Assembly (NCBI GenBank): GCA_013180625.2
Contig: SNVD02001284.1
Coordinates: forward strand, 1 to 64,000
Length of the DNA: 64,000 nucleotides
Reading direction: 5' to 3'
Origin: Boswellia sacra
Taxonomy: Eukaryota > Streptophyta > Magnoliopsida > Sapindales > Burseraceae
A model generated the notes under the pieces. That model did not search any database and had not been told where the DNA came from. It saw nothing but the letters and a program-made list of their open reading frames with translations. Positions 15,743 through 47,269 of the stretch are shown here, in pieces. Every line of letters begins with the position of its first letter. Position 1 is the first letter of the stretch. The translations under genes were made by a program, and so were the position numbers.

Positions 15743-17269
15743 TGATGAACACTTAAATATGCATGTTTAATAAGAGTTTAGTTCATCATATTGCATTAAT
15801 AGTGTCATTAAATTCCTCAACTTAAGCATATTTGTAGCATTTGCATCTTTGGAATTAATTTCTCTTAATTTTGGTTTTGTTACAGGTTCGGTAAAATGGG
15901 CATAACTCTCTATTTATAGATCAGAATGGTGCAATTCTTAATGTTTTGGAAAGCTGATTTAATTGTCTACAAGATTGCATTTCACAAGCATCATCAAATT
16001 CGGGCTCTTAGTGGACCAAAATTGGGCTTGAAGTGAACCCATCTACAGTCTCGGCCCAGTCTGACCAGGCCTCAGTATTTGGACCGTATCTCTCAAAATA
16101 CTTATCCAAATTGTGCAAATCAATATGTTCTAGAAAGCTGAGATAAATATCTACAACTTTCATGAAGACATGTGATTAAAATTCACGACATTTTGATGTG
16201 AAAATTGATGGTCAAAGTCGGTGCCTAATGATCCCAATTGTCAAAGATATTTACAACTAATATTTGACAATTATGCCCTTGTAATTTGACAAGTTTGCCC
16301 CTGGATGTATCTATAAATAGAGGTGCCTTGTGACCCATTAGGGCATCTTGGCCTTGGCTGGAACATTTTGGCTTTGGCTAGGATCTTGTATTGTGTTTTG
16401 TGTGTTTATGTTATTAATGAATTTCCTTTTTCTTGCATTTTATTTTCTTTCTATTATAATGTTCTTCTAATTTCTCTTTTGCTAAGGTGAAAGGGTGAAA
16501 CCCTTGATATGAGAATAAGGATTCTCTAACCCTTAATATGTGCTTAATAATCTTAATCTTATAATGTTTATTCAATATGATTTATATTTAATTTCTTAAT
16601 CAATCTTGACACCACTCGTAAAGTGGAGGTCTTGATCCATTGTCGACAATCCTTGGCACATCAAATGCTTGGATCCTTTCTAGATGATGTATGGTTCTTC
16701 CTTACCGACACGAATCTAGTTAGGAACCTTGATTTGTTGTAGACATATGGTGATTGGCACATTGGATGCTTGAACCCATTTACAAGAAGTGGTATAAATA
16801 TTGGTAACGAAATAAATATAATTCATATAACTAAAATGGGTTAATTATCCTTATTTAAAATATCAAGGGCGGATCCCCTAACCTTAGCCTTCATTATTAT
16901 TGTGTTAATTCCTCTTGTACTTTAATTATTCTATTGTTTATGAACTTTTATTTTATTTACTATGGTAGGTTCTACCACCTTATGAAATTGTTCTTTAATT
17001 TACTATGGTTGGTTATACCACCTATTTCCATGGATGGTTTTACCTCCTCTTGCTTTTTGTTTTATATTTGAATGGTCGGTAATACCGCCTACCATCTTAC
17101 ATATTTATTGATATTATCTTGTCATTTATTTGAATTATTCACACCATATTTGCTTATCTTATAATTTGTAACGCTAAAATTCCCTTCCTCGTGGATCGAC
17201 CTCGGACTCACCGGGTTTATTACTTCGACACTCCTATACTTGGGAGACAATCCTTTTTCGGATGTGTCA
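15743..17269 (+). repeat. 5' LTR of copy A
   Basis: It starts TGATGAACAC and ends GGATGTGTCA, 1527 bp. It is almost identical to 25728-27252 and more distantly related to 34781-36298 and to the inverted 50516-51838. Confidence 0.9.
16312..16319 (+). promoter_or_regulatory. TATA box in the Athila LTR
   Basis: TATAAATA followed by GAGGTGCC is kept in every LTR of this family: 16312, 26296, 35342 and, inverted, 51401-51408. This is the likely promoter of the genomic transcript. Confidence 0.55.
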
Positions 17270-17275
17270 AGTTTT

Positions 17276-17293
17276 TGGCGCCGTTGCCGGGGA
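17276..17293 (+). other. Primer binding site, tRNA-Asp type
   Basis: TGGCGCCGTTGCCGGGGA lies six bases after the LTR end. It is complementary to the 3' end of plant tRNA-Asp, the usual primer of Athila elements. Confidence 0.8.
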
Positions 17294-17403: not shown

Positions 17404-20223
17404 ATGAAAATTTGGTCACGAACATCTAGTGGTAGACTTGTTAGAAAAACATCATCTTCCTTAGAAAACATGGCCAACAATCATGAAGAAATATTCACGG
17501 ATGAAGGGGACAACCGTTCGCAACAAAATGATCAAAACCAACGAAGAACCCTCAGAGACTACATGAATCCGGTAAGGACTAGTGCACCATCTTGTGTAGT
17601 TTCTCCTCCAGATTCAATCCATTTCAATTTCAAACCAAGTTTTGTTCGACTTCTACCCACTTTTCATGGCCTTGACATGGAGAACCCATATTCGCACTTG
17701 AAACTCTTTGAAGAGGTATGTAGCTCCTACACTGACCCAAATTGTAGCATAAACACCATTAGATTAAAGCTTTTTCCTTTTTCTTTAAAAGATAAAGCTA
17801 GAACATGGCTACAAAATTTGAGGTCGAATTCCATCAGTTCATGGGATGAGATGAAACAACAATTTTTGAAAAAATTTTTTCCTACCCATAGAACAAATTC
17901 TCTTAAAAGACAAATTTCTGATTTCTCTCAAAAACAAGGAGAAACCCTTTACCAATGTTGGGATAGGTATAAGGAACTACTTAATACCTGTCCTCACCAT
18001 GGGTTTGAAACTTGGAGAATAGTTGCACATTTCTATGAAGGGTTAACACCTCAAGATAGGCAACTAGTGGAATTAATGTGTAATGGAGAATTTAAAGAAA
18101 AAGACCCTGAGGAAGCACTTGACTTCCTAGATTCCTTGGCAGAAAAGGCACAAAATTGGGACACTGCTGGCACCTATGAGGTACCAAGCAAGGCCCAAAC
18201 CTCGACATCCAATAGAGGTATTTACAACCTTAGGGAAGACCATGACCTTCAAGCCAAATTCGCATCCCTAGCTAGAAAAGTCGAGGCTTTAGAGATGAAA
18301 AAGAGTGGTCAATTGAAATCTATTCAAGAAAATGTCTGTAACATTTGTGATGACAATGACCATTCTACTGATGATTGCCCAACTTTGCCTGCCTTTAGGG
18401 AATGTCTCCATGAAGAAGCCAATGCCTTGAACACTTTCAAAAGGCCAAATCACAATCCATATTCACAAACCTACAATCCTGGTTGGAGAAATCATCCAAA
18501 TTTTAGCTGGAAAAATGACAATCATGCACAATCTTCACAAGTCCCTTTTCAAACACGACAAAATTTTCAAAATTCTCATGATCATGCATATGCTCCTCCT
18601 CCTAGGAATGACTTTGAAGAGACATTGCATTCATTCATTACAAAGCAAGAGACTTTCAATAGTCAAACTGCTCAAACATTAGCAAATTTGTCAGAAACTC
18701 TTGCAAAATTTGCATCTACATTTAGCATCCAAGAGAAGGGAAAATTTCCTTCTCAAACATTGCAAAACCCCAAAGATCAATCTAACTCAAATGCAGGAAG
18801 TTCAAGTAACCATTACTTTGACCAAGCCAAGTCAATCATGACCCTTCGCAATGGTAAGATTGTTGAAAAACACATTCCTGACCCTTGTGAGAAAGAAGAA
18901 GAATCGATCTCTAAAGGGCAGGAAGAGGCTGCTAAACCAACACCTAGCGAAGAGGAAACCATATCCTCATCTGTGCCTCCATTTCCTCAAGCATTAGCCA
19001 CACAAAAGAAGCAAACTCACAGTTCTGAAATCTTTGAAATTTTCAAACAGGTAAAGGTCAACATTCCCTTGCTTGATGTGATCAAACAGGTACCTTCTTA
19101 TGCAAAATTTTTGAAGGACTTGTGCACTGTAAAAAGAAAACTAAATGTGAAAAAGAAGGCCTTTCTAGCCGAGCAAGTAAGTGCTATTCTTCAAAATAAT
19201 AATACAGTGAAATATAAGGATCCAGGTTGTCCTACAATTTCATGTGTTATTGGAGACCATAAAATTGAACAAGCTTTACTTGATCTTGGTGCTAGTGTGA
19301 ATTTGCTTCCATATTCGGTTTTTCAGAAACTCAATTTAGGTGAGTTAAAACCGACTTCTGTGACTCTTTTGCTTGCTGATAGATCAATTAAAGTACCAAG
19401 AGGAGTAGTAGAAGATGTGTTAGTTCAAGTCGATAAATTCATTTACCCAGTGGATTTTATTGTCTTGGACACACAACCAGTGGAAGTATGTAATTCAATT
19501 CCTGTCATTTTAGGGCGTCCATTTCTAGCTACCTCTAATGCTTTGATTAATTGCAGGAATGGAGTCATGAAGCTATCTTTTGGGAACATGACATTGGAAC
19601 TAAATGTTTTCAATATGTGCAAACAACCACATGAAGAAGAAGATGAAATTGAGGAGGCTAATATGATCGAATCTATTGTGGAAGATCACATCCAAAAAGG
19701 GAGTTCTTCTGACCCTTTGGAAACTTGTTTAGTAAATTCGTTAGAATCAAGTATGGAACTAGAACATGATCTTTCTAATATGTGTTCTTTACTGGATTGT
19801 GCACAGGTGTTGGAAAAAGGCTCAAAATCAAGATTTGAAGAATTGGGGCAGATGAATGAAAGCAAGGAAGATGAAGCTCCCAAGCTAGAATTGAAGCCCT
19901 TACCTGAAGGACTGAAATATGCATATCTTGGGGAGAATCAGACATATCCGGTGGTAATTTCTTCATCCCTCACATGCGAGCAACAAGGTAAGTTGATAGA
20001 AGTGCTTAAAAGGCATAAAAATGCAATTGGGTGGACTTTAAAAGATATAAAAGGCATTAACCCTTTAATTTGCACACATAGAATACATTTAGAGGAAAAT
20101 GCCAAAACATCTCAACAACCTCAAAGGAGATTAAATCCACACATGAAGAGGTCATTAGGGCTGAAGTTCTCAAACTACTTGATGTGGGAATTATCTATCC
20201 TATTTCTGATAGTAAGTGGGTAA
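17404..20223 (+). CDS. gag: Athila gag-protease polyprotein (copy A), open 939 codons
   Basis: The N-terminal gag has the plant retrotransposon gag core around residues 105-220 (KARTWLQNL, SSWDEMKQQFLKKFFPTHRT, RIVAHFYEGL). A CCHC zinc knuckle (CNICDDNDHSTDDC, C-x2-C-x4-H-x4-C) follows near residue 316. The aspartic protease at about 610-720 has LLDLGASVNLLP as its active-site loop, with DLG where many proteases have DTG or DSG; DLGAS is common in Athila-type elements. The last codons are out of frame: compared with 29190-29200, one A is missing near 20147, which cuts the polyprotein before reverse transcriptase. Translation may start at the ATG at 17404 or at the next one near 17470. Confidence 0.85.
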   Translation: MKIWSRTSSGRLVRKTSSSLENMANNHEEIFTDEGDNRSQQNDQNQRRTLRDYMNPVRTSAPSCVVSPPDSIHFNFKPSFVRLLPTFHGLDMENPYSHLKLFEEVCSSYTDPNCSINTIRLKLFPFSLKDKARTWLQNLRSNSISSWDEMKQQFLKKFFPTHRTNSLKRQISDFSQKQGETLYQCWDRYKELLNTCPHHGFETWRIVAHFYEGLTPQDRQLVELMCNGEFKEKDPEEALDFLDSLAEKAQNWDTAGTYEVPSKAQTSTSNRGIYNLREDHDLQAKFASLARKVEALEMKKSGQLKSIQENVCNICDDNDHSTDDCPTLPAFRECLHEEANALNTFKRPNHNPYSQTYNPGWRNHPNFSWKNDNHAQSSQVPFQTRQNFQNSHDHAYAPPPRNDFEETLHSFITKQETFNSQTAQTLANLSETLAKFASTFSIQEKGKFPSQTLQNPKDQSNSNAGSSSNHYFDQAKSIMTLRNGKIVEKHIPDPCEKEEESISKGQEEAAKPTPSEEETISSSVPPFPQALATQKKQTHSSEIFEIFKQVKVNIPLLDVIKQVPSYAKFLKDLCTVKRKLNVKKKAFLAEQVSAILQNNNTVKYKDPGCPTISCVIGDHKIEQALLDLGASVNLLPYSVFQKLNLGELKPTSVTLLLADRSIKVPRGVVEDVLVQVDKFIYPVDFIVLDTQPVEVCNSIPVILGRPFLATSNALINCRNGVMKLSFGNMTLELNVFNMCKQPHEEEDEIEEANMIESIVEDHIQKGSSSDPLETCLVNSLESSMELEHDLSNMCSLLDCAQVLEKGSKSRFEELGQMNESKEDEAPKLELKPLPEGLKYAYLGENQTYPVVISSSLTCEQQGKLIEVLKRHKNAIGWTLKDIKGINPLICTHRIHLEENAKTSQQPQRRLNPHMKRSLGLKFSNYLMWELSILFLIVSG

Positions 20224-21738
20224 GCCCTACACAAGTAGTACCGAAGAAATCTGGCATTACAGTAGTTAAAAATGAAAAGGGTGAATTATTGCCAACTCGT
20301 GTCTCATCTAGTTGGAGGATGTGCATTGATTATAGAAAATTAAATGCTGTCACTAGAAAAGACCATTTTCCCTTACCCTTCCTTGACCAAATTCTTGAAA
20401 GAGTAGCAGGAAACCCCTACTATTGCTTTCTTGATGGATACTCAGGCTACTATCAAATTCCCATTGCACTTGAAGACCAAGAAAAGACCACATTCACGTG
20501 CCCCTTTGGCACTTTTGCATTTAGGAGAATGCCTTTTGGACTTTGTAATGCCCCAGCCACTTTTCAAAGATGCATGTTAAGCATTTTCAGTGACATGGTT
20601 GAGCATTGTTTAGAAGTTTTCATGGATGATTTAACTGTCTTTGGAAACTCTTTTGATAATTGTCTTGAAAATTTAGAAAAAAGTCCTAAAAAGGTGTGTA
20701 GAAAAAGGTCTTATTTTGAATTGGGAAAAATGTCATTATATGGTCACTTCAGGAATTGTTTTAGGTCATGTGGTGTCTTCTAAAGGAATTGAAGTGGATA
20801 AAGCAAAAGTGGAATTAATTTCCCATTTGCCTCCACCAAAAACAGTTAAAGAGGTTCGTTCATTCTTAGGGCATGCTGGATTTTATAGGAGGTTCATAAG
20901 AAATTTCAGTGCTATATCTAAACCTCTTTGTAACCTCTTAATAAAAGATACTTCCTTTGAATGGACTCAAGAATGTCAAAATGCCTTTGATACACTAATT
21001 GGACTTTTAACAACTGCTCCAATTATGCAATTTCCTGATTGGTCCTTGCCTTTTGAATTGATGTGTGATGCAAGCGACTATGCAGTTGGTGCTGTCTTAG
21101 GACAAAGAAAAGAAGGTAAGCCTTATGTGATATACTATGCAAGTAGGACTTTAAATGATGCACAAATGAATTACACAACAACTGAGAAAGAACTACTTGC
21201 AGTAGTATTTGCATTGGACAAATTTCGATCTTATTTAATTGGCTCTCCAACAATTGTTTACACTGACCACGCAGCTGTGAGATATTTAATGTCTAAACAG
21301 GATGCAAAACCTAGATTGATACGGTGGATCTTATTGCTCCAAGAATTCAACATCACAATAAAGGATAAGAAAGGAGCCGAAAATGTCGTTGCTGATCATC
21401 TTTCAAGACTAACGACAGAGACATTAATTGAAACTTCACCTATCAATGATTCTTTTCCTGATGAATTTTTATTTTCTGTTGCTACTGTACCTTGGTTTGC
21501 TAATATTGTAAATTTTCTTGCGACAGGGAAAATGCCACCTCATTGGAAAGCTCAAGACAAAAGAAAGTTTTTGACCGAGGTGAAAAATTTTTACTGGGAT
21601 GATCCGTATCTTTTCAAATATTGTCCGGATCAAATAATAAGAAGATGCATACCCGACAATGAGGTAAGTAGTGTCATTAACTTTTGTCATTCTGAAGCAT
21701 GTGGAGGACATTTTTCATCTAGAAAAAACAGCTGCTAA
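20184..21738 (+). pseudogene. pol: Athila reverse transcriptase and RNase H (copy A, frameshifted)
   Basis: The first open segment (20184-20783) covers the RT fingers and palm: WRMCIDYRKLNAVTRKDHFP, FLDGYSGYYQIPIALEDQEK, FRRMPFGLCNAPATFQRCM and the catalytic FMDD in EVFMDDLTVFG. One extra A near 20680 shifts frame relative to copy B. The second segment (20716-21738) has the RT thumb ([19 protein letters not shown]) and RNase H ([41 protein letters not shown]). It runs into the integrase zinc domain before another shift near 21725. Confidence 0.85.
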
Positions 21739-22776
21739 AATCTTGCAATGTGGATTTTATTGGCCCACCTTATTTAAAGATGCACATGCATTTTGCAAAA
21801 CGTGTGAAAATTGTCAAAAATTGGGATCCATTTCAAAAAGAAACATGATGCCTTTGAATCCCATTCTTGTTGTTGAAATCTTTGATTGTTGGGGTATTGA
21901 TTTTATGGGACCCTTTCCACCGTCATTTGGTTTTGTGTATATCCTTGTTGCAGTAGACTATGTTTCAAAATGGGTCGAGGCAACTCCATGTCGAAACAAT
22001 GACCACAAAACAGTTGTCAAATTCTTGAAAGAGAATATCTTGAGTAGATTTGGAATTCCTCGAGCCATTATTAGTGATGGGGGTACGCATTTTTGTAATA
22101 AATCATTTGAAACCTTAATGAAGAAATATGGAATAACCCATAAAATTTCTACACCTTATCACCCACAAACAAGTGGACAAGTTGAATTAGCTAATAGGGA
22201 GATAAAACAGATCCTAGAAAAAACGGTTACCCAAATCGTAAAGATTGGTCTTTAAGACTTAGTGATGCACTTTGGGCTTACCGAACTGCTTTTAAAACAT
22301 CATTGGGAATGTCTCCTTATAGACTAGTTTATGGAAAACCTTGTCACTTACCTGTGGAAATTGAGCATAAAGCTTATTGGGCCATTAAAACATTCAACAC
22401 AAATTTGAATGATGCTTGCAAGTTACGTAAACTCCAACTGAGTGAACTTGAAGAAATCAGGAATGAGGCTTATGAAAATTCTAAAATCTACAAAGAAAAA
22501 ATGAAGGTTTTTCATGACAAATCCATTGTTAGAAAATCTTTTGAACCTTCACAAAAAGTTCTTTTGTATGATTCAAGATTGCATTTGTTTCCTGGTAAAC
22601 TTCGGTCTCGTTGGACTGGGCCTTTTATTGTTAAAAATGTTTTCCCTCATGGAGCAGTTGAAATTGAGAACCCAAAGAATGGTAATGTGTTTAAAGTTAA
22701 TGGACAACGGTTAAAACCATTCTTTGAAAATTTTGACCAAAACGAAGAGTCCATTGCTTTAATCGATCCTTTTTAA
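21671..22776 (+). pseudogene. pol: Athila integrase (copy A, frameshifted)
   Basis: The HHCC zinc-binding domain reads through [21 protein letters not shown]. The catalytic core shows its acidic residues at [19 protein letters not shown] and [11 protein letters not shown], the D,D-35-E triad. A one-base loss near 22228 separates this from the C-terminal part (22303-22776; [25 protein letters not shown]). The polyprotein would end at 22776. Integrase inserts the cDNA copy into host chromosomes; this copy is inactive as read. Confidence 0.85.
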
Positions 22777-22903
22777 GGATTGATTTTTCCCGGTCAAGTG
22801 GCGGATACGGTACTCCGTGACATTTAAAGTCGGTTTTTCAGTTCCCTAAAAACTGTTGCTCACCTTGCATCCATTTTCTTTTCTTCTCTCTCATTTTCTT
22901 CAC

Positions 22904-23452
22904 ATGGATACCATTCTCTCAAAATTGCACAAACATTTTCCCTCTCTTCCTCAAAATGATTTGCTTAAAATTTATAAAGCTCGTGCAGAAAGACTAAGGT
23001 TGTTGATGCGTAAAGGTATTCCTGCTGATTTAAGATGGTTAATTGAAGCCAAGGTTCGATTTTCCTATGAATTTTCAGATAATCTTGTGTCTCACATGCC
23101 AGGTATGGGAAAAAGCTCTTACGCCAAAAAGCGAAGAGCAAAAAGGTTACAAGTTTGTACTAGATGTGCAAGATGGACTTGTAACCAGCGTTGCCGCTCC
23201 TTGGGGTATTTGTCTAACAATCGAGAGGATAAACTACAGTTCATCAAGAATGGACTGAGTAAGGAGTCTTTGGATGATATCCGAACGACTCTTGAGACGC
23301 ATTCTTGTGGACTTGTGCAGCGTGAAATTTTTAATTTGTGGACACAATTCCGAGATGAGCAGGAACGCTATAGTCTTGGGAATCTGACTCAAAACGACCC
23401 TGTTTGCCAGTTTATAAGAAAACTGGATGGGAAGCATATCCCCAACTCATAG
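22904..23452 (+). CDS. Extra ORF of the Athila family, unrecognised basic Cys protein (copy A)
   Basis: This intact 182-codon frame starts MDTILSKLHKHFPSLPQNDL, 127 bp after the pol stop. I do not recognise the family. Visible features are a leading alpha-helical region, a strongly basic stretch KKRRAKR at about 70-77 that could act in nuclear import or RNA binding, and right after it a cysteine cluster CTRCARWTCNQRC (C-x2-C-x4-C-x3-C) that could bind zinc. The C-terminal half is polar and helical, with no membrane segment, so it is not a typical envelope-like protein although it occupies that position in Athila elements. Copies lie at 31945-32516 and, split by a solo LTR, at 53598-59287. The Cys cluster is kept in all, including an HRCARWTC form. 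Confidence 0.7.
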   Translation: MDTILSKLHKHFPSLPQNDLLKIYKARAERLRLLMRKGIPADLRWLIEAKVRFSYEFSDNLVSHMPGMGKSSYAKKRRAKRLQVCTRCARWTCNQRCRSLGYLSNNREDKLQFIKNGLSKESLDDIRTTLETHSCGLVQREIFNLWTQFRDEQERYSLGNLTQNDPVCQFIRKLDGKHIPNS

Positions 23453-23711
23453 AAGGTGTTTAAGCCGTTTCTGGACGTAAAACCAGAGGAAGATGTGAGC
23501 CACAGTCACAACTACCTGTACATATGCATGCGTCCCATCATTTTTGAATTTTAATGCCTTATAGCTGTCATTTTTGAATTTGTATCTTTTGCTTGACTTA
23601 TGGTGTCTTATTTCATCATCTTTTTTTGAATTTCTATGCATTATTGTCATATTTTTCAAAAAGCAACCGAGCTACCTATTTAGATGTCATCATTAGCATA
23701 CCTTTTTGCAC

Positions 23712-23722
23712 TCCATATATAC
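23712..23722 (+). promoter_or_regulatory. TATA-like site upstream of the LOG ORF
   Basis: CCATATATACC lies about 50-60 bp upstream of the LOG start codon. The other two copies have CCATAAATAT at the equivalent place (near 32742 and, inverted, 53329). It may be a relic of the donor gene's promoter or leader, or an internal promoter. Motif and position only. Confidence 0.3.
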
Positions 23723-23770
23723 CACATCTCTTATTCTCTTCCTCACACATAGTTAGAGAGTTGCATAGAC

Positions 23771-24406
23771 ATGGAGGGAACTTCAGAACGTCGAATCCAA
23801 AGGATATGTGTATTCTGCGGATCTCGACCAGGTAAAAGTGAGGAGTTTGTAGAAGTAGCAAACTATCTTGGTAGGCTACTGGCTGAAAGAAAGATTCATG
23901 TGGTTTATGGGGGAGGTAGCCTCGGGTTAATGGGTTGTGTGTCAACAGCTGCACATGTAGGAGGTACTCAAGTTTTAGGAGTTATTCCTAAAGCTTTGGC
24001 TGTAGAAAGTATTGTTGGAAAAACGGTTGGGAAGGAGTTACAGGTCTCCTCTATGCATGAACGCATGGCACATATGCTCATCAATTCAGATGCCTTTATT
24101 GCTTTACCAGGTGGCTTTGGCACTCTTGAAGAAATTTTTCAAATTGCCTCTTGGGCCCAACTGAATCTCCATCAAAAACCCATAGGTTTGTTGAATGTCA
24201 AAAATTTCTTTGATCCTTTGATAAGTTTTGTTGATGCAGCTGTGGAACAGAATTTTATCCCTCATTCAGCGAGAAAGATCCTTGTTTCTGCCACTTTGCT
24301 GGTGAGTTACTTGACAAATTACAAGAAGTTGAGTATGAACCTGACCCAGCTAGTACTCAAATTAATTGGGCAGGAGGGCAAAACAAAAAGTGCAAATTGG
24401 ATTTGA
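23771..24406 (+). CDS. LOG-like: LOG-like cytokinin riboside 5'-monophosphate phosphoribohydrolase carried by Athila (copy A)
   Basis: The 211-codon frame encodes most of a LONELY GUY enzyme, which releases active cytokinin bases from their nucleotides in the cytosol. Family landmarks are in order: RICVFCGSRPGK near residue 10, VVYGGGSLGLMG near 45, VLGVIPKAL, SMHERMAHM with the catalytic-site arginine, and the signature PGGFGTLEE near 118-126 (PGGxGTxxE). IGLLNVKNFFDPLISFVD follows. Plant LOG genes have several introns; this one has none, which suggests capture from a spliced transcript. Near 24295 a single-base loss shifts frame. The other frame continues ELLDKLQ and stops at 24418-24420, and the other copies share that end, so about 40 C-terminal residues differ from the ancestral form. 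It lies between pol and the 3' LTR, in sense with the element. Confidence 0.88.
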   Translation: MEGTSERRIQRICVFCGSRPGKSEEFVEVANYLGRLLAERKIHVVYGGGSLGLMGCVSTAAHVGGTQVLGVIPKALAVESIVGKTVGKELQVSSMHERMAHMLINSDAFIALPGGFGTLEEIFQIASWAQLNLHQKPIGLLNVKNFFDPLISFVDAAVEQNFIPHSARKILVSATLLVSYLTNYKKLSMNLTQLVLKLIGQEGKTKSANWI

Positions 24407-25097
24407 ATCTCCGTTTGTAATTTTTTTGTCTTTTATTTTATTCTATTTTTAGCATGTTATTTTATGAGTCTTTCAGGTCATCTCTCTTGAATAACAGAAG
24501 CTTCAGGTAATGTCTCCTATACTTTATCTCTCTACATTTAAACAATGCGGACAATGTTTCATTTGGTTGGGGGGGAAGGATAGTAGACATAAGTGTGTCT
24601 TGAAATTTTATTTTTTGCAAAAAAAAAAAAAGCGAGTTAGTAATTAGATTCAGAGTGCGGTGTAAGGAGTTCAAATCCTCTTGAGACGCATTCTGGGTAA
24701 GGAATGGCAGAGTAAGGAGGACCAGTTTGAACTCTTGAAACCCATTCTAACCAATTTGTCATTTTATTTTGATTTTGTGAACTTATTTTAGCTTGATTCA
24801 TTTCACTTTGAATTATTCAAATCTATGAACTCTCACAACCTTATCATTTAAAAAAAAAAAAAAATTTGTGTGCTTATGTACTCATTAAGCAAGTATTCAT
24901 GAACCTTTCTTCACACACACACACATACCTTGATGCATGATTGTGGGTGGCAAAATGAGATGTTGTAATATTTGAGTTCTTTTATTTTGTTTAGGATAAC
25001 AACACAAAGGAAGGGGAAAGTTAAAAAAAAAAAGTGAAAAAAAAAGTGAAAAAAAAAGGAAGAGAAAGCAATTGTGGATAAGTTTGGTCTCGTAGCC

Positions 25098-25370: not shown

Positions 25371-25717
25371 ATTCCTACAAAAAAAAAAAGAGAAAAAAAA
25401 ATATATATTTATATATAATGAATAAATGCTCCTTACCTAAGGTTGTTAGCCTTAACAAATATTAGAACCGATATGGCTTCTTTCTAATAAGCCCCATAAT
25501 CATGTGTCGACTGAGCACAAAAAGAAGGTTTATTGATATCTTGACTGAAGGGTACGTGAGTCATAAAAAAAAAAATAATAATCAATAATAATTGTTGAGA
25601 GTTTGTTTATTTGGATAAAATCAAGGAGAGTGCAATAATGACCACCTTGGATGTAAAATTCTATAAATCACTTCTAAATAATAACGCTTTAATTGCTAGG
25701 GACTAGCAATAAGCTAG

Positions 25718-25727
25718 TTGGGGGGTG
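25718..25727 (+). other. Polypurine tract of copy A
   Basis: TTGGGGGGTG directly precedes the 3' LTR start and would prime second-strand synthesis. The copy B equivalent is GGTTGAGGGGTG before 34781. Confidence 0.6.
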
Positions 25728-27252
25728 TGATGAACACTTAAATATGCATGTTTAATAAGAGTTTAGTTCATCATATTGCATTAATAGTGTCATTAAATTC
25801 CTCAACTTAAGCATATTTGTAGCATTTGCATCTTTGGAATTAATTCCTCTTAATTTTGGTTTTGTTACAGGTTCGGTAAAATGGGCATAACTCTCTATTT
25901 ATAGATCAGAATGGTGCAATTCTTAATGTTTTGGAAAGCTGATTCAATTGTCTACAAGATTGCATTTCACAAGAATCATCAAATTCGGGCTATTAGTGGA
26001 CCAAAATGGGCTTGAAGTGAACCCATCTACAGTCTCGGCCCAGTCTGACCAGGCCTCAGTATTTGGACCGTATCTCTCAAAATACGTATCCAAATTGTGC
26101 AAATCAATATGTTCTAGAAAGCTGAGAGAAATATCTACAACTTTCATGAAGACATATGATTAAAATTCACAACATTTCGATGTCAAAATTGATGGTCAAA
26201 GTCGGTGCCTAATGATCCCAATTGTCAAAGATATTTACAACTAATATTTGACAATTATGCCCTTGTAATTTGACAAGTTTGCCCCTGGATGTATCTATAA
26301 ATAGAGGTGCCTTGTGACCCATTAGGGCATCTTGGCCTTGCTGGAACATTTTGGCTTTGGCTAGGATCTTGTATTGTGTTTTGTGTGTTTATGTTATTAA
26401 TGAATTTCCTTTTTCTTGCATTTTATTTTCTTTCTATTATAATGTTCTTCTAATTTCTCTTTTGCTAAGGTGAAAGGTGAAACCCTTGATATGAGAATAA
26501 GGATTCTCTAACCCTTAATATGTGCTTAATAATCTTAATCTTATAATATTTATTCAATATGATTTATATTTAATTTCTTAATCAATCTTGACACCACTCG
26601 TAAAGTGGAGGTCTTGATCCATTGTCGACAATCCTTGGCACATCAAATGCTTGGATCCTTTCTAGATGATGTATGTTCTTCCTTACCGACACGAATCTAG
26701 TTAGGAACCTTGATTTGTTGTAGACATATGGTGATTGGCACATTGGATGCTTGAACCCATTTACAAGAAGTGGTATAAATATTGGTAATGAAACAAATAT
26801 AATTCATATAACTAAAATGGGTTAATTATCCTTATTTGAAATATCAAGGGCGGATCCCCTAACCTTAGCCTTCATTGTTATTGTGTTAATTCCTCTTGTA
26901 TTTTAATTATTCTATTGTTTATGAACTTTTTATTTTATTTACTATGGTAGGTTCTACCACCTTATGAAATTGTTCTTTAATTTACTATGGTTGGTTATAC
27001 CACCTATTTCCATGGATGGTTTTACCTCCTCTTGCTTTTTGTTTTATATTTGAATGGTCGGTAATACCGCCTACCATCTTACATACTTGTTGATATTATC
27101 ATGTCACCTCTTTGAATCATCCATATCACATTTGTTTAGCTTATAATTTGTAACGCTTAAATTCCCTTCCTCGTGGATCGACCCCGGTCTCACCGGGTTT
27201 TATTACTTCGACACTCCTATACTTGGGAGACAATCCTTTTTCGGATGTGTCA
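25728..27252 (+). repeat. 3' LTR of copy A, abutting copy B internal DNA
   Basis: It is 1525 bp and nearly identical to 15743-17269. At 27253 it joins directly to gag sequence equivalent to position 18185 of copy A, with no primer site between. Confidence 0.88.
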
Positions 27253-27253
27253 G

Positions 27254-30200
27254 CAAGCAAGGCCTCAACCTCGACATCTAATAGAGGCATTTACAACCTT
27301 AAGGAAGACCATGAGCTTTAAGCTAAATATGCATCCCTAGCTAGAAAAGTTGAGGCTCTAGAAATGAAAAAGAATGGTCAATTGAATTCTATTCAATAAA
27401 TTGTCTATCACATTTGTAATCAGAATGACCATCCTACTGATGAGTGCCCAACTTTGCCTGCCTTCAGGGAATGTCTCCATGAACAAGCAAATGCTTTGAA
27501 CACTTTCAAAAGGCCAAATCATAATCCACACTCACAAACTTACAATCTTGGTTGGAGAAATCATCCAAATTTTAGTTGGAAAAATGACAATCATACACAA
27601 TCTTCCCAAGGTCCCTTTTCAAACACGACAAAATTTTCAAAATTCTTATGATCATGCATATGCTCCTCCTCCTAGGAATGACTTTGAAGAGATATTGCAT
27701 TCATTCATTACAAAGCAAGAGACTTCAATAATCAAACTGCTCAAACATTAGCAAATTTGTCAGACACTCTTGAAAAATTTGCATCTACATTTAGCATCCA
27801 AAAAAAGGAAAATTTCCTTCTCAAACATTACAAAACCCCAAAGATCAATCTTACTCAAATGCAAGGAGTTTAAGTAACCAGTATTTGGACCAAGCCAAAT
27901 CAGTCATGACCCTTTGCAATGGTAAGGTTGTTGACAAACACATTCCTAAATCTTATGAGAAAGAAGAAGAATCGATCTCTACAGGTCAGGAAAAGGTTAC
28001 CAAACCAACACCTAGCTAAGAAGAAACCAAATCCCCATCTGTGCCTCCATTTCCTCAAGCATTAACCACACAAAAGAAGCCAACTCACAATTCTGAAATC
28101 TTTAAAATTTTCAAATAGGTAAAGGTAGATGTGATCAAACAAGTACCTTCTTATGCAAAATTTTTTAAAGATTTGTGCATTGTGAAAGGAAAATTGAATG
28201 TGAAAAAGAAGGCCTTTCTAGTCGAGCAAGTAAGTGCTATTCTTCAAAACAATAATACAGTGAAATATAAGGATCTGGGTTGTCCTACAATTTCATGTGT
28301 ATTGGAGACCATAAAATCGAACAAGCCTTACTTGATCTTGGTGCTAGTGTAAATTTGCTTCCATACTCGGTTTTCCAGAAACTCAATCTAGGTGAGTTAA
28401 ATTTGACTTCTGTGACTCTTTTGCTTGCTGATAGATCAATTAAAGTGCCAAGAGGAGTAGTAGAAGATGTGTTAGCTCAAGTCGATAAATTCATTTACCC
28501 AGTGGATTTTATCATCTTGGATACACAACCAGTGGAAGTATGTAATTCAATTCCTGTCATTTTAAGGCATCCATTTCCAGCTACCTCTAATGCTTTGATT
28601 AATTGCAGGAATGGAGTTATGAAGCTATCATTCAAAAACATGACATTAGAACTTAATGTTTTTAATATCTGCAAACAACCAAATGAAGAAGATGATGAAA
28701 TTGAGGAAGCCAATACGATTCAAACTATTGTGGAAGACCACATCCAAAAAGGGAGTTCTTCTGACCCTTAGGAAACCTGTTTGGTCCATTCATTAGAATC
28801 AAGTATGAAACTAGAGCCTGATCTTTCTGATACATGTTCTTTATTGGATCGTGCACAAGTGATGGAAAAAGACTCGAAATCACGATTTGAAGAATTGGGA
28901 CAAATAAATCAAAGCAGGGAAGAGGAAGCTCCCAAGTTAGAACCGAAGCCTTTACCTAAAGGACTAAAATACACATACCTTGGGGAGAATTAGACATATC
29001 CAGTGCTAATTTCTTCATCCCTCACAAGCGAGCAATAAGGTAAGGTGATACACGTACTTAAAAGGCATAAAAATGCAATCAGATGGACTTTGAAAGACAT
29101 AAAAGGCATTAACCCTTTGATTTGTACACATAGAACACATTTAGAAGAAAATGCCAAAACATCCCAACAACCTCAAAGGAGATTAAATCCGTACATGAAA
29201 GAAGTCATTAGGGTTGAAGTTCTCAAATTACTTGATGTGAGAGTTATCTACCCTAATTCTGATAGTAAGTAGGCAAGCCCTACACAAGTAGTACCTAAGA
29301 AATCTGACATTATAGTAGTCAAAAATGAAAAGGGTGAATCATTGCCAACTCAAGTTTCATCTAGTTGGAGGATGTGCATCGATTATAGAAAATTAAATGC
29401 TGTCACCAGAAAAGACCATTTTCCCGTACCATTCCTTGACCAAATTATAGAAAGAGTATTAGGGCACTCCTACTACTGCTTTCTCGATGGATACTCAGGC
29501 TACTATCAAATTCCCATTGCACTTGAAGACCAAGAAAAGACCATATTCACGTGCCCCTTCAGCACTTTTGTATTTAGGAGAATGCCTTTTGGACTTTGTA
29601 ATGCCCCAGCCGCTTTTCAAAGATGCATGTTAAGCATTTTCAGTGACATGATTGACCATTGTTTAGAAGTTTTCATGGATGATTTAACTGTCTTTAAAAT
29701 TCTTTTGAGAATTGTCTTGAAAACTTAGAAAAAGTCCTAAAAAGGTGTGTAGAAAAAGGTCTTATTTTGAATTGGGAAAAATGTTATTATATGGTCACTT
29801 CGGGAATTATCTTAGGTCATATGGTGTCTTCTAAGGGAATTGAAGTGGACAAAACAAAAGTGGAATTAATTTCTCATTTGCCTCCACCAAAAATAGTTAA
29901 AGAGGTCCATTATTCTTAAGGCATGCTGGATTTTATAGGAGATTCATAAGAAATTTCAATACTATATCTAAACCTCTTTATAACCTCTTAATAAAAGACA
30001 CTTCTTTTGAATGGACTCAAGAATGTCAAAATACCTTTGATAAGTTAATTAGACTTTTAACAACTGCTCTAATTATGCAATCTCCTGATTGGTCATTGCC
30101 TTTTGAATTGATGTGTGATGCGAGTGACTGTGTTGTTGGTGCTGTCTGAGGCCAGATAAAAGAAGATAGGGCTTATGTGATAAACTATACAAGTAGGACT

Positions 30201-31787
30201 TTAAATGATGCATAAATGAATTACACAACAAAAAAAGAATTACTTGTAGTAGTATTTGCATTGGACAAATTTCGATCTTATTTAATTGGTTCTGAAACGA
30301 TTGTTTACACTGACCATGCAGCTATGAGATATTTAATGTCTAAACAGGATGCAAAACCTAGATTGATGTGGTGGATCTTATTGCTCCAAGAATTCAACAT
30401 CACAATAAAGAATAAGAAAGGTGCCAAAAATGTCGTTGTAAACCATCTGTCAAGATTAATGACAGAGACTTTAACTAAAACTTCATCTATCAATGACTCT
30501 TTTCCTGATGAATTTTTATTCTCTGTTGCTACTGTACCTTGATTTGCTAACATTGTAAATTTTCTTGCAACATGAGAAATGCCACCTCATTGGAATGCTC
30601 AAGACAAAAGAAAGTTTTTGACCGAGGCGAAAATTTTTTATTGGGATGACCCATATCTGTTCAAATATTGTCTGAATCAAATAATTAGAAGATGCATACC
30701 CGACAATGAGGTAAGTAGTGTCATTAATTTTGGTCATTTCAAGGCATTTGGAGGACATTTTTCATCTAAAAAACAGCTACTAAAATCTTGCAATGTGGAT
30801 TTTTTGGCCCACCTTATTTAAAGATGCACATGCATTTTTCAAAACGTGTGAAAATTGTTAAAAATTGGGATCCATTTCAAACAAAACATGATGCCTTTGA
30901 ATCCTATTCTTGCTGTTGAAATCTTTGACTGTTGAGCTATTGATTTTATGGGACCTTTTCCACCATCATTTGGTTTTGTGTACGTTATTGTTGCAGTAGA
31001 CTATATTTCAAAATGGGTCTACGCAATTCCATGCTGAAAATGATCACAAAATAGTTATCAAATTCTTGAAAGATAATATCTTGTGTAGATTTGGAATTCC
31101 TCGAGCCATTATTAGTGTGGGGGTACACATTTTTGTAACAAACCATTTGAAACTCTAATGAAGAAATATGGAATAACCCATAAAGTTTCTACAACTTATC
31201 ACCCGCAAACAAGTGGACAAGTTGAATTAGCTAATAGGGAGATAAAACAGATCTTAGAAAAAATAGTTAGCCTAAATCGTAAAGATTGTTCTTTAAGACT
31301 TAATGATGCAGTTTGGGCTTGCTGAACTGCTTTCAAAACATCATCAGGAATGTCTCTTTATAGATTAGTTCATGGAAAACCTTGTCACTTGCCTATGGAA
31401 ATTGAGCATAAAGCTTATTGGGCCATTAAAACCTTTAACACAAATTTGGATGATGCTTGCAAGTTACGTAAACTCAAACTGAGTGAACTTGAAGAAATCA
31501 GGAATGAGGCTTATGAAAATTCTAAAATCTACAAAGAAAAAATGAAGGTTTTTCCTGACAAATTCATTGTTCGAAAATCTTTTGAACCTTCACAAAAAGT
31601 TCTTTTGGATGATTCAAGATTACACTTGTTTCCTAGTAAGCTTCGGTCTCGTTGGACTGGACCTTTCATTGTTAAAAATGTTTTCTCTCATGGAGTAGTC
31701 GAAATTGAAAACCCAAAGAATGATAATGTTTTTAAAGTTAATGGACAACAGTTAAAATCATTCTTTGAAAATTTTGATCAAAATTAA
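27254..31787 (+). pseudogene. Athila gag-pol remnant (copy B)
   Basis: It is collinear with 18185-22776 of copy A and carries many stops and frameshifts. Readable parts are the gag zinc-knuckle region (27410-27460), protease (28280-28771, LLDLGASVNLLP), reverse transcriptase (29342-29728, with FMDD), RNase H (30216-30542) and the integrase core and C-terminus (30680-31787, ending LRSRWTGPF and onward). The first about 915 bp of the internal region, including primer site and early gag, are missing. It is older and more decayed than copy A. Confidence 0.85.
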
Positions 31788-31944
31788 GAGTCCATTACTT
31801 TAGTCGATCCTTTTGAAGGATTGATTTATCCCGGTCAAGTGGCGAATACAGTACTCTGTGGCTTTTAAAGTCAGTTTTTCAGTTCCCTAAAAATTGTTGC
31901 TCATCCTACATTTATTTTCTTTTCTTCTCTCTCATTTTCTACAT

Positions 31945-32516
31945 ATGGATACCATTCTCTCGAATCTGCACAAATATTTTCCCTCTCTTCCTCAAAATGA
32001 TCTGCTTAAAATTTACAAAGCTCACGCAGACTAAGGATGTTGATGCGCAAGGATATTCCTGCTGATTTAAGATGGTTAATTGAAGCCAAGGTTCGATTTT
32101 CTTGTGAGTTTTCAGATAATCTTGTTTCTCACATGCCAAGTTTGGGAGAAAGCTCTTACGCTAAAAAGCGAAGAGCAAAAAGGTTACAAGTTTGTCACAA
32201 ATGTGCAAGATGGACTTGTAACCTGCGTTGCCCCTCCTTGGGATATTTGTCTAACAATCGAGAGGATAAGCTACAATTCATCAAGAATGGCCTGAGTAGG
32301 GAGTCTTTGGATGACATCCGATTGACTATTGAGACATATTATTGTGGACTTGTGCAGCGTGAAATTTTAAAATTGTGGACACAATTCCAAGATGAGCAAG
32401 AACGTTATAGTCTTGGGAATCTGACTCAAAATAACCCTGTTTGCTGGTTTATAAGAAAACTGGATAGGGAGCATATCCCAACTCATAGAAGGTGTTTAAG
32501 CCATTTTTGGACGTAA
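31945..32516 (+). pseudogene. Extra Cys-cluster ORF, copy B
   Basis: It starts MDTILSNLHKYFPSLPQNDL like the copy A protein. A small deletion near 32028 shifts frame, after which 32037-32516 is open and keeps KKRRAKR and CHKCARWTCNLRC. The stop of the copy A frame is missed because one C is lost near 32480. Confidence 0.75.
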
Positions 32517-32799
32517 AACTAGAGAAAGATCTGAGCCACAATCACAATTACCTGTACATATGCATGTGTGCGCCGTCATTTTTTAATTTATATCTTTTGT
32601 TTGGCTCATGCATTTATGGCATCTTTTTTCTGTCATTGTTTTTTTTTTTTTGAATTTCTATGCATTATTGTCAAATTTTTTTTCAATAAACAACCAAGCT
32701 ACCTATATAGATGTCATCATTAGAATACCTTTTTACACTCCATAAATATGACTTAGCCTGTTCTCCTCTTCACACATATAGTTAGAGAGTTGCATACAT

Positions 32800-33306
32800 A
32801 TGAAGGGAACCTCAAAATGTTGAATCCAAAAGATATGTGTATTTTGTGGATCTCGAACTGGAAAAAGTGAAGAGTTTGTAACAGTAGCAAATTATCTTGG
32901 TAGGCTATTAGCTGAAAGAAAGATTCTTGTGGTTTATGGAGGAGGTAGCCTCAGGTTAATGGGTTGTGTGTCAACAGCTACACTCGTAGGAGGCAGTCAA
33001 GTTTTAGGAGTTATTCCTAAAGCTTTGGTTGTACAAAGCATCGTTGGAAAAATGGTTGGGAAGGAGTTACAAGTCTCCTCTATGCATAAACGCATGGCAT
33101 ATATGCTTATCAATTCGGATGCCTTTATTGCTTTACCAGGTGGCTTTGGTACTTTTGAAGGAATTTTTCAAATTGCCTCTTGGGCCCAACTAAATCTCCA
33201 TAAAAAACCCATAGGTTTGTTGAATGTTAAAAATTTCTTTGATCCTTTGATAAGTTTTGTTGATGCAACTGTAGAACAGAATTTTATCCCTTATTCGGTG
33301 CAATAG
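32800..33306 (+). pseudogene. LOG-like: LOG-like gene, copy B (decayed)
   Basis: It starts at an ATG equivalent to copy A. Codon 8 is TGA (32821-32823), where copy A has CGA. The frame then stays open from GSRTGKSEEF to the stop TAG at 33304-33306. The catalytic signature reads PGGFGTFEG, so the final glutamate of PGGxGTxxE is changed to glycine; GGGSLRLMG also differs. Sequence beyond 33306 still resembles the family C-terminus (ELLDKLQ). Not expected to be active. Confidence 0.82.
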
Positions 33307-33419
33307 AACCTTGTTTCTACTACTTCTGCTAGTGAGTTACTTGATAAATTACAAGCAGTGAAGTATGAACCTGACCCAGCTATTACTCAAATTAATTGGT
33401 TAGGGGGACACAAAAATTA

Positions 33420-34453
33420 CAAATTGTATCTGAATCTCTGTTTGCAATTTTTCTTGTCTTTTATTTTATTTGTAGCATTTTATTTTATAAGTCTTTCAAG
33501 TCGTCTCTCTTGAATAACAGAAGCTTCAGCCAATGTCTCCTATACTTTATCTCTCTACATTTAAACATTGAGGACAATGCTTCATTTGGTTTGGGGGAAA
33601 GGATAGTAGACATAAGTGTGTCTTAAATTTTCTTTTTCTTGCAAAAAAAGCAAGTTAGTACTTAGATTTAGAGTGCGGTGTAAGGAGTTCAAATCCTCTT
33701 GAGACGCATTATGGGTCAAGAATGGCCAAGTAAGGAGGGCCAGTTGAACTCTTGGAACACACTCTGACCAATTTGTCATTTTGATTTTGCATTTTTGAAG
33801 ACTCATTTTAGCTAACTTGACATTATTTAGTTTTGATTTTTGAATTTTATAACAATGAGGTCTTATTCACTTCACTTTAAATTATTCAAATCTATGAACT
33901 CTCACAACCATATCATTTAATAAACTGTGTGCTCATGTACTCATTAGGCAAGTATTCATGAACCTTTCTTCACACACACACATACTTTGATGCATTATTG
34001 TGGGTTGGAAAATGAAATGTTGCAATATTAGATTGTTTTGTTTTGTTTAGGATAACAACAAAAGGAAGGGAAAACTGAAAAAAAAAGTGAAAGCAAAAAA
34101 AAAAAAAAGAAAAAGAAGTGAAAGAAAAAAAAACAAAAAGAAAGGCAATCGTGGATAAGTTTGGTCTTGTTGCCTCCTTAATTCGAGCAATTAAGCCCAA
34201 GGGGTGCTTCAACACCTAATACCCTAAGACCAACCAGTTTGGGAGCTATTGGCCCAAATCTCGTTACATGGATTAAGGAGAAAGCTTAATGGGATTGAAC
34301 ATTGCACTATCCATAATTTTCTAAGCAAAAATAAAGCATCGACAACCCGAGTCGTTAAGCTCGTAGGGGTGTCTTAACATCTAATGCCCTAACGCCAACT
34401 GGTCTGAAAGTCATTAGCCTAAGGCTTGCTACATGGTTAAAGCTGTATTTTTT

Positions 34454-34488
<35 letters not shown>

Positions 34489-34780
34489 GAATGAATGCCC
34501 CCTGCCTAAGGTTGTTAGCCTTAACAAATATTAGAACTGATATGGCTTCTTTCTAATAAGCCCTATAGTCATGCGTCGACTGAGCACAAAAAGAAGGTTT
34601 GTTAATATCTTGACTAAAGGGTACATGAGTCATTTAGAGAAAATCGGTTGAGAGTTTGTTTATTTGGATAAAATTAAGGAAAGTGCAATAATGACCACCT
34701 TAGATGTAAAATTCTATAAATCACTTCCAAATAATAACGCTTTAATTGTCAGGGACTAACAATAAGCTGGTTGAGGGGTG
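33420..34780 (+). other. 3' untranslated region of copy B
   Basis: It is collinear with 24421-25727: A-rich runs near 34080-34140, the direct-repeat units at about 34180-34440, an AT dinucleotide run and a polypurine tract. No gene seen. Confidence 0.6.
34456..34486. repeat. AT microsatellite
   Basis: About 15 uninterrupted AT dinucleotides. The equivalent place in copy A (25400-25418) has only a short ATATAT stretch, so the run expanded in this copy or shrank in the other. Confidence 0.85.
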
Positions 34781-36298
34781 TGATGAACACTTAAATATGT
34801 ATGCTTAACAAGAGCCTAATTCATCATATTACATTTATAGTGTCATTAAATTCCTCAACTTAAGCATATTTGTAGTCTTTGCATCTTTAAAATTAACTTT
34901 CTCTTAATTTTGGTTTTGTTGTAGGTTTGGTAAAATAGGCATAACTTTCTATTTATAGATTAAAATGGTGAAAATCTTTATTTTTTGGAAATCTGATTAA
35001 ATTGTCTACAAGATTGTGTTTCACAAGCATCACCAAATTCGGGCTCTTAGTGGACCAAAAATGGGCTTGAAGTGAACCCATCTGTAGTTTCAACCCAGCC
35101 TAACGATGCCTCAGTATTTTGACCATATCTCTTGATATACGCGTCCAAGTCATATAAATTAAGATGTTCTAAAAAGATGAGAGAAATATCTAAAACTTTC
35201 ATGAAGATATGTGATTAAAATTCTAAGTAATTCAGTACCGAAATCAGTGGTCAAAGTCGATGCACATGATGATCCCAGTTGTCAGCAACACATTTGACTT
35301 TTGTCCTTTTATAATTTGGTAAGTTTGCCCCTGAATGTAACTATAAATAGAGGTGCCTTGTGACCCATGAGAGCATCTCAGCCTTGACTGGGATCTCTTG
35401 TTATTGTGTTTGTCTCTCTTGTGTTTTAATGTAATTAATGAATTTTCTTTTTCTTGCAATTTGTTTTCTTTCTTTATAATGTTTTGCTAAATTCTCTTCT
35501 GCTAAGGTGAAAGGGTGAAACTCTTGATATGAGAATAAAGATTTTCTAACCGTTGACATGTGCTTTATAATCATAATCTTTTGTCGTTTATTTTATACGT
35601 TTTATATTTATTTTCTTAATCAATCTTGACACCACTCACAAAGTAGAGGTCTTGATCCATTCTAGACAATCCCTGACACATTAAATGCTTGGATCATTTC
35701 TAGATGTCGTATGGTTCTTCCTTACCGACACAAATCTAGTTACGAACCTTGATTTGTTGTCGACATATGGTGATTGGCATATTGGATGCTTGAACCCATT
35801 TACAAGAAGTGGTATAAATATTGGTAATGAAACAAATATAATTCATATAACTAAAATGGGCTTAAATGACATACCTTCCAATTAGAATCTCCTTGATGTG
35901 TAGATTCTAATTGAGTTATAATTGGATTATTTATCTTTATTTGATATATCAATGGCAGATCCCCTAGCCTTAGCTTTCATTATTATTTTGTCAATTTCTC
36001 TTATTTGTGTATTTTAAGTATTATTGTTTATTACTTATTAAATTGTTCCTTTATTTCCATAGATGGTTTAATCACCTCTTATTCTTGATTGCATTTGAAA
36101 GATCGGTTTTATCACTTATCATCTTGCTTTTATTTGTTAATATCATCTTGTTATTCATTTAAATTATTCATATCATACATGCTTACCTTATAGTTTGTAG
36201 CAATAAAACCCCTTCCTCGTGGATCGTCCTCGGTCTCACCAGGTTTATTGCTTCAACACTCCTATACTTGGGAGGTAATCCTATTTTTTGATGTGTCA
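34781..36298 (+). repeat. Athila LTR ending copy B (older)
   Basis: It starts TGATGAACAC and ends GATGTGTCA, 1518 bp. It is clearly more diverged than the pair bounding copy A and has a short extra stretch near 35865-35920. Its right flank TCACC does not match any left flank in the array. Confidence 0.85.
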
Positions 36299-36658
36299 TC
36301 ACCATCTGTTGGTAAGTTACCCTTACGTTCTTCAACCTGAAGGGCATCATCCTGTAATAATAGATTCCCCACTCTGCGATTAAGGTTGTCTGAATCTTGT
36401 CTTTGTTGGCTATCATTATCTGGTTGTGTCCAAAAAGCCTTTCTATAAGGGAGAATATGACGCTAGTTGTAGCACTATCTACCAACGTATCTATATAACA
36501 TAAGGGAAAGTCATATTTTGGCTAAGCCTTATTGAAGTCTCAATAGTTGACTCACATTCAAAACCTTCCATCCTTCTTTGGCATAGGCATGATACCGGCT
36601 AACCATCTCGAATAGTTCACCACATCTAGGAACTTTGCTTGAATCTACTTAGACAGTT
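36299..36658 (-). pseudogene. Reverse transcriptase fragment, Tat/Ogre-like element
   Basis: The minus strand reads FLDVV, then WLAGIMPMPKKDG, then LVDSAT, GHNQIMIANKDKIQTTLIAEWG and MPFRLKNVRVTYQQMV, with frame breaks. This is the finger and palm region of plant Ty3/gypsy RT (compare MPFGLKNAGATYQ in intact members). It ends abruptly at the Athila LTR end (36298). Protease and gag are absent between it and the adjacent LTR. Confidence 0.75.
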
Positions 36659-41140: not shown

Positions 41141-41147
41141 GATTTTT

Positions 41148-42886: not shown

Positions 42887-42942
42887 AGTGGTATCAGAGC
42901 AAGGTTGCTCAATTTTTTTAAATCTTAATCGATTTTTGAGCT

Positions 42943-43658
42943 ATGGCAACTTTTAATTCAACTTCATATGTTGAGGGACTTTCTATCTCTAGACCTCCAT
43001 TTTTAATGGAAGTGATTACTCTTATTGGAAAACTAGAATGAGTATTTTCTTGAAATCTTTTGATTATGATTTGTGGTCTATTGTTTTGGAAGGACCTTTT
43101 GTTCCTACCAAAATTGAAAATGGGAAATGCATGCTTAAAGAACCTCAAGAGTTTAGTGAAGATGATAAAAAGAAATTGAGTTTGAATGCTAAAGCTATGA
43201 ATGTGTTGTATTGTGCTCTAGATAGAAATGAGTTTAATAGACTATCTACTTGTTCTACGGCACAAGAAATATGGCACACACTTGAAGTAACTCATGAAGG
43301 AACTAGTCAAGTTAAAGAATCCAAAATTAGTATGCTAGTTCATAGTTATGAGCTTTTTAAGATGACATCGGATGAATCAATTTCTGAAATGTTTACTAGA
43401 TTTACGGATATTATTAATAGTTTGAAATCTCTTGGTAAATCTTATTCTAATGTTGAAATGGTGAGAAAGATTCTTAGGTGTCTACCAAAATCTTGGGAGC
43501 CAAAGGTGACGGCAATTCAAGAATCAAAGGACCTCACCAAACTACCATTAGAAGAACTTATGGGTTCTCTCATAACTCATGAAATCACCTTGAAGGGGAA
43601 TGAAGAAGATTTCAGAAAAGAAAAACATTGCATTCAAATCTTCACACAAGAAGGATGA
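42943..43658 (+). pseudogene. Copia gag
   Basis: The start ATG at 42943 (MATFNSTSYVEG) is followed near 42997 by a frame change into 43038-43658. That segment encodes the Copia gag core (SFDYDLWSIVLEG, AKAMNVLYCALDRNEFNRL, AQEIWHTLEVTHEGT, ILRCLPKSWEPKVTAIQE). A downstream frame at about 43815-43860 holds the CCHC knuckle CYECKKPGHVKIDC. Confidence 0.82.
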
Positions 43659-45370: not shown

Positions 45371-45408
45371 AGAAAGTAAATGATTCTTCCCAAGAATTAC
45401 CAAAGTAA

Positions 45409-47047: not shown

Positions 47048-47269
47048 TTTTGCTTATATTAGCATATGTTAAGGGGAGAATATATTTAGGGGGAGTAGTT
47101 AATTTGATTACATCTTTTTGATGATAACAAAAGGGGGAGAAATAGTTGGATTGCTTATATTCATAACAAGTGCCATTCTTTTTGCTTAATGTTGATTTTA
47201 TTTTCATTCTTGATTTTAGATTATATTTTAAAGCAATCAATGGTTTGTCATCATCAAAAAGGGGGAGAT

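Follow-up and report, generated by a model that had tools for sequence, protein, structure and literature searches.

Organization of the retrotransposon copies

The window, the entire 64,000-nucleotide stretch of Boswellia sacra DNA analysed here, holds three copies of an LTR retrotransposon family in which two accessory ORFs lie between pol and the 3′ LTR. Self-BLAST recovers the same order in all three: integrase, a cysteine-rich ORF (ORF A), a LOG-like ORF, and the 3′ LTR. Element 1 comprises the following features:

15743–17269, + strand: 5′ LTR (TG...CA), 97.5% identical to 25728–27252 by self-BLAST
17276–17293, + strand: primer-binding-site-like sequence TGGCGCCGTTGCCGGGGA directly 3′ of the 5′ LTR, read from the sequence
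17404–20223, + strand: gag-protease ORF (PF03732, E 6.5e-23; PF13650, E 2.8e-5)
20082–22776, + strand: RT, RNase H, and integrase in overlapping, frameshifted ORFs (PF00078, PF17917, PF17919, PF17921, PF00665)
22904–23452, + strand: cargo ORF A (PF05515, E 3.7e-7; PF01623, E 1.7e-6)
23526–24540, + strand: LOG-bearing segment that the related L001 element lacks (bounds approximate, from the break in homology with L001)
23771–24406, + strand: cargo ORF B, LOG-like, with a frameshifted C-terminal tail (PF03641, E 1.6e-37)
25712–25727, + strand: polypurine-tract-like G run preceding the 3′ LTR, read from the sequence
25728–27252, + strand: 3′ LTR (self-BLAST; ends read)

Athila primer-binding sites are complementary to tRNA-Asp, and the sequence next to the 5′ LTR of element 1 may be such a site. 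The 5-base sequences on either side of element 1, CTAAC and GCAAG, differ and give no target-site duplication, and the pol of element 1 is split into overlapping ORFs by frameshifts. An Rfam match to snoR71 lies antisense within the gag region (17897–18005, − strand; 41.7 bits against a cut-off of 40). The other two copies comprise:

27254–34780, + strand: element 2 interior, lacking the 5′ end (88% vs element 1)
31941–32488, + strand: ORF A of element 2 (approximate bounds, by alignment)
32800–33306, + strand: decayed LOG of element 2, with a stop at codon 8 (translation)
34781–36301, + strand: 3′ LTR of element 2 (79% vs the element 1 LTR)
50512–51839, − strand: partial 3′ LTR of element 3 (∼80% vs the element 1 LTRs)
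52632–53278, − strand: decayed LOG of element 3, with several stops (translation)
59009–64000, − strand: element 3 pol and the 5′ portion of its ORF A, extending past the window end (91% vs 18174–23182)

Element 2 lacks a separate 5′ LTR and begins right after the 3′ LTR of element 1. Element 3 runs on the − strand from 50512 to beyond the window end and is interrupted within ORF A by a nested insertion (53872–59009). In the self-BLAST, 18185–26825 matches 27254–35865 (88%), 18174–23182 matches 64000–59009 (91%), and 23176–25194 matches 53872–51829 (87%). The initial annotation had placed LOG-like ORFs at 23771–24406, 32800–33306, and (inverted) 52632–53278, with the same neighbours each time; all three are found there, flanked by the shared integrase, ORF A, and 3′ LTR. 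The interval that it singled out, 22904–24420, does contain LOG, but it opens with a second cargo ORF (22904–23452) that went unnamed.

A single local segmental duplication is ruled out as the source of the three copies, as the two LTRs of element 1 differ by 2.5% and elements 1 and 2 by ∼12%, and relatives of the element LOGs occur in other genera from four rosid orders. A nested LOG retrocopy confined to one copy is ruled out too, since LOG sits at the same place in all three.

The order of Pfam domains in pol (protease, RT, RNase H, integrase) is that of gypsy elements. Pfam finds neither a chromodomain nor a second (archaeal-type) RNase H in the pol ORFs scanned. According to excerpts of a published account, Athila elements lack the second RNase H, which marks Tat, and additional 3′ ORFs are frequent in the superclade containing Athila and Tat (PMC6317226). 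By domain content, we classify these elements as Athila-type LTR retrotransposons (Ty3/gypsy, non-chromovirus OTA). The window also contains a Ty1/copia element at 41147–49062 (gag_2, RVT_2), whose LTRs also match the insertion interrupting element 3 within ORF A (at 53872–54241 and 57736–59012), and a piece of a polygalacturonase-type gene at 4363–4833 (− strand; PF00295, PF12708).

The cysteine-rich ORF A protein

ORF A encodes a 182-aa cysteine-rich protein with a basic patch (KKRRAKR) followed by a C-x2-C-x4-C-x3-C cluster. It scores above the curated cut-offs of two viral Pfam families, PF05515 (Viral_NABP; 30.8 bits vs 23) and PF01623 (Carla_C4; 28.3 vs 20.9). In an alignment of 18 ORF A members, 14 match PF05515 and 13 match PF01623 at E ≤ 0.001. 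A protein search returned 367 candidates, 339 of which are relatives at E ≤ 0.01; PF01623 is precomputed for every one of the best 120 of these 339. Populus, Xanthoceras, Rhamnella, Acer, and Orobanche are named as sources among the matches listed, and the cysteine cluster after the basic patch is kept in 103 of 121 aligned rows. On this profile evidence, we assign ORF A to the nucleic-acid-binding protein type of carlaviruses and vitiviruses.

Structure prediction gave a first model of pLDDT 54 and a second of pLDDT 71 (pTM 0.34). None of 35 BFVD matches to the second model reaches E ≤ 0.001. Ranks 1–8 are small flexivirus proteins, several of them labelled ‘RNA silencing suppressor’ (E 0.12–1.6, TM ≤0.31), and this model-based ranking would be weak support for the family beside the Pfam matches. 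A PDB sequence search with ORF A gave nothing useful (best E 0.42), and scans of viral contigs did not find a relative. Viral relatives of the family suppress RNA silencing, and the chrysanthemum virus B p12 protein is a transcription factor that induces hyperplasia, both as stated in excerpts of one paper (PMC12172455). We found no report of a carlavirus-type protein in a retrotransposon in the open-licence literature, and ORF A looks new as retrotransposon cargo.

The 66 bases 3′ of the ORF A stop (23453–23518) are also conserved: 58 of 66 agree with L001, equal to the best parts of the ORF itself. In the relatives P0075 and P0255, this stretch continues in frame; the codon differences are three silent and five non-silent. 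A leaky stop and an RNA element are both possible readings of this pattern.

The LOG-like ORF and its relatives

The 211-codon ORF at 23771–24406 (+ strand) matches PF03641 with 129 bits (cut-off 27). Its closest solved structures are the Arabidopsis proteins At2g37210 (2a33, E 2.8e-58) and At5g11950 (1ydh, E 1.4e-51). YGGGSLGLMG, MHERM, and PGGFGTLEE are all kept. The ORF has the PF03641 domain together with PGGxGTxEE and the arginine of MHER, the sequence features expected of LOG. Among 121 aligned LOG rows, the strict PGGxGTxEE is present in 96 and missing in 25. The reading of this ORF as LOG stands for domain and motifs, but its C-terminal tail is out of frame relative to its relatives (see next section). 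By sequence, we consider the product LOG-like, a putative cytokinin riboside 5′-monophosphate phosphoribohydrolase. A TATA-like stretch ∼57 bases 5′ of the LOG start (within 23526–23770) is kept in all three copies, and it is possible that LOG has its own promoter there.

Phylogenetic analysis separates element LOGs from host LOGs, as the initial annotation had proposed to examine. A 96-row tree, which omitted 96 of the best 120 hits to the window LOG and 19 of 90 further hits, divides 51 element-type from 45 host-type LOGs at 100/100. In a 52-row tree rooted on two bacterial LOGs, the 29 element rows form a single clade (99/100) that is recovered in 98% of 200 bootstrap trees, a bootstrap that had not settled. 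The host LOGs in these trees are mainly LOG7- and LOG1-type. The element clade has a long stem (0.88) and lies among plant LOGs whose internal order is unsettled. Element-clade LOG maps as one change on the 52-row tree, consistent with a single capture of LOG by the element lineage.

The clade is widespread. Reevesia pubescens supplies 53 of the best 120 hits to the window LOG, on 18 chromosome labels, and Diplodiscus supplies nine; further sources among the matches listed are Populus, Parasponia, Melia, Xanthoceras, and Acer. These genera represent four rosid orders: Malvales, Malpighiales, Sapindales, and Rosales. A taxonomy look-up gave the orders for Reevesia, Rhamnella, Xanthoceras, and Orobanche; the other genera named (Diplodiscus, Populus, Parasponia, Melia, and Acer) are placed in their customary orders. 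Moreover, six of 23 long gene models (at least 225 residues; from Acer, Xanthoceras, and Rhamnella) join element pieces, as judged from the protein sequences alone of third-party gene models. ORF A is joined to LOG in P0088 (Rhamnella) and P0255 (Acer yangbiense), gag to LOG in P0289 (Acer saccharum), and integrase to ORF A in P0078 (Rhamnella); P0123 and P0244 (Xanthoceras) combine LOG with a gag piece and LOG. The single clade and these joined models in other genera bear out the initial annotation in treating LOG as an established constituent of an Athila-type family.

The C-terminal tail of element LOGs

Most full-length element LOGs end in LxLxL. We defined full length as 212–222 residues, selecting by clade and length alone, which retains 109 of the 147 rows outside the host clade; LxLxL is the C-terminal end of 94 of these 109, following a basic patch. 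Among the other 15, eight are off by about a residue and seven are Xanthoceras/Acer-type or aberrant. After thinning to ≤75% identity, a step blind to the tail, 19 of 22 rows still end in LxLxL, where ∼0.001 per protein is expected by chance at a leucine share of 0.107. The motif is found in none of 45 host-clade LOG rows, whether the last 20 residues or the whole sequence is considered, and it is missing from the 13 Xanthoceras/Acer-type rows of the 96-row tree. In an excerpted account, EAR motifs follow either of two consensuses, LxLxL and DLNxxP (PMC8126959). The tails of the relatives satisfy this consensus; that of the window copy is out of frame. Specifically, P0141 and P0156 have tails that match 24298–24402 in a different frame from the 23771 ORF, and the conserved C-terminus of the window LOG lies in the other frame from ∼24298, reading ...NKKCKLDLNLRL and then a stop. 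By this comparison, the window's best LOG has lost its LxLxL tail by frameshift. With this tail lost and pol broken, element 1 as it stands probably does not work as a complete element. Neither ORF A nor the tail was noticed in the initial annotation, and both look new.

Such a tail raises the possibility that element LOG acts as a nuclear regulator, with the tail decisive and the enzyme fold a scaffold that binds a ligand or co-repressor. The long stem of the element clade and the conservation of a tail that fits an EAR consensus (as excerpted from PMC8126959) are in line with this idea. We nonetheless consider it very unlikely, as the catalytic motif persists in most of the LOG rows counted above and the tail is missing from Xanthoceras/Acer-type rows.

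A related element that lacks LOG

Scanning bacterial and archaeal genomes with the ORF A alignment found a single locus, L001, a 3330-base contig filed under a ‘Candidatus Nomurabacteria’ MAG. We regard L001 as probably a plant retroelement present as contamination in the bacterial MAG. L001 matches the window across integrase and ORF A at 76% of bases (over 3–1542), and the ORF A proteins share 73% of residues. Homology ends at window position 23525 and restarts ∼1 kb downstream, and tblastn does not find LOG in the 3330 bases of L001. Either LOG joined an ORF A-bearing element later, or L001 lost it.

L001 bears on a hormone-only reading that follows the initial annotation: LOG would simply raise cytokinin in meristem cells and thereby help the element into the germ line, and ORF A would be incidental. 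The kept LOG motifs agree with this reading. We think it unlikely all the same: ORF A is conserved at least as well and is present without LOG in L001, and enzyme activity alone does not explain a conserved LxLxL that the 45 host-clade LOGs lack.

Selection on the cargo genes

Pairwise NG86 estimates of dN/dS, made without a significance test, are below one for both cargo genes when element 1 is compared with other copies. For ORF A, the ratio is 0.25 between element 1 and L001 and 0.30 between elements 1 and 2; for LOG, it is 0.31 between elements 1 and 2 and 0.42 between elements 1 and 3. The integrase of element 1 and L001 gives 0.09. Between elements 2 and 3, the LOG ratio is 0.86 by NG86 (range 0.86–0.95), as expected of two copies that would be decaying neutrally. 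YN00 gave estimates for four of the six pairs.

These ratios help to weigh whether LOG and ORF A are passengers, picked up by template switching and persisting without use to the element. The decay of the window copies, with a LOG dN/dS near 1 between elements 2 and 3, the absence of the strict catalytic motif from about a fifth of LOG rows, and the ability of L001 to manage without LOG would all fit passengers. Conversely, diverged copies retain both the catalytic motif and the tail (as in the rows thinned to ≤75% identity), ORF A is conserved from rosids through Orobanche, and the ratios for element 1 against element 2, element 3, and L001 are well below 1. On balance, we find a passenger origin improbable.

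A proposed silencing and proliferation cassette

The reading that we favour, and to which we give an even chance, is that an Athila-type lineage carries, downstream of pol and ahead of its 3′ LTR, a gene for a cysteine-rich, flexivirus-type zinc-finger protein and a captured LOG gene that work as a silencing and proliferation cassette. Beyond the observed anatomy, protein families, single LOG clade, spread, and motif conservation, we infer whatever influence the cassette has on silencing, cytokinin, TOPLESS, or the germ line. The joined gene models, the pairwise codon ratios below 1, and the silencing suppression and hyperplasia ascribed to viral relatives (PMC12172455) speak for it. We conjecture that the cysteine-rich ORF A protein, by analogy with its viral relatives, may dampen RNA silencing, act as a nuclear regulator, or both. 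A plant LOG would have been captured once; it keeps its enzyme motifs, and most full-length relatives have gained or kept a C-terminal basic patch and an EAR-like LxLxL tail. The element LOG protein could then raise the level of active cytokinin, with TOPLESS-type co-repressors perhaps recruited by its tail. Acting together, ORF A and LOG might help the element to be expressed and copied in dividing cells. The shortness of the LxLxL motif and its absence from the Xanthoceras/Acer-type rows count against this cassette, as do the near-neutral LOG ratio of elements 2 and 3, the lost tail and broken pol of element 1, the 25 LOG rows without the strict catalytic motif, the ORF A model that has no viral match at E ≤ 0.001, and a host LOG sample that is mainly LOG7- and LOG1-type.

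A bolder version, which we hold to be doubtful, is that the retroelement has built a virus-like module for host manipulation, in which a silencing-suppressor-type protein of a kind that RNA viruses also have and a cytokinin-activating LOG with a tail for recruiting co-repressors would make host cells divide with their guard lowered while the element is copied in the meristem. If the cassette reading is true, a plant retrotransposon would possess genes dedicated to acting against its host that come from two sources, RNA viruses sharing the first and hormone metabolism supplying the second, and the route of plant elements to the germ line could be tested through two small proteins.

Comparison with known systems

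The initial annotation knew of no described retrotransposon lineage with LOG as cargo; excerpts of a published paper contradict this, describing a LOG-type YgdH domain in consensus sequences of LTR elements from two Citrus species and Populus trichocarpa and citing Steinbauerova et al. (2011) for it (PMC9289625). Those elements resemble the ones described here in carrying a LOG-type domain within gypsy-type elements of eudicots, but the excerpted account mentions no cysteine-rich ORF, LxLxL tail, or single clade spanning four orders (PMC9289625). The same excerpts describe orchid gypsy elements with an m6A demethylase domain, which likewise hold an enzyme domain of host type as a fixed component; they differ in enzyme and in plant group, and no viral-type partner ORF is mentioned there (PMC9289625).

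ORF A shares with the PF01623/PF05515 proteins of carlaviruses, vitiviruses, allexiviruses, and their kin a Pfam score above the curated cut-off and a basic patch followed by four cysteines. Unlike these viral proteins, it is retrotransposon-borne and is 182 aa long with long additional N- and C-terminal parts. Similarly, the element LOGs share the PF03641 fold family, MHER, and PGGxGTxEE with host LOGs (At2g37210 and At5g11950; LOG7- and LOG1-type), but they form a separate long-stem clade, are uninterrupted in the window, occur in multiple copies, and mostly end in LxLxL. The Populus LOGs of the element clade are publicly recorded as ‘probable ... LOGL10’, and counts of plant LOG genes may therefore include element copies.
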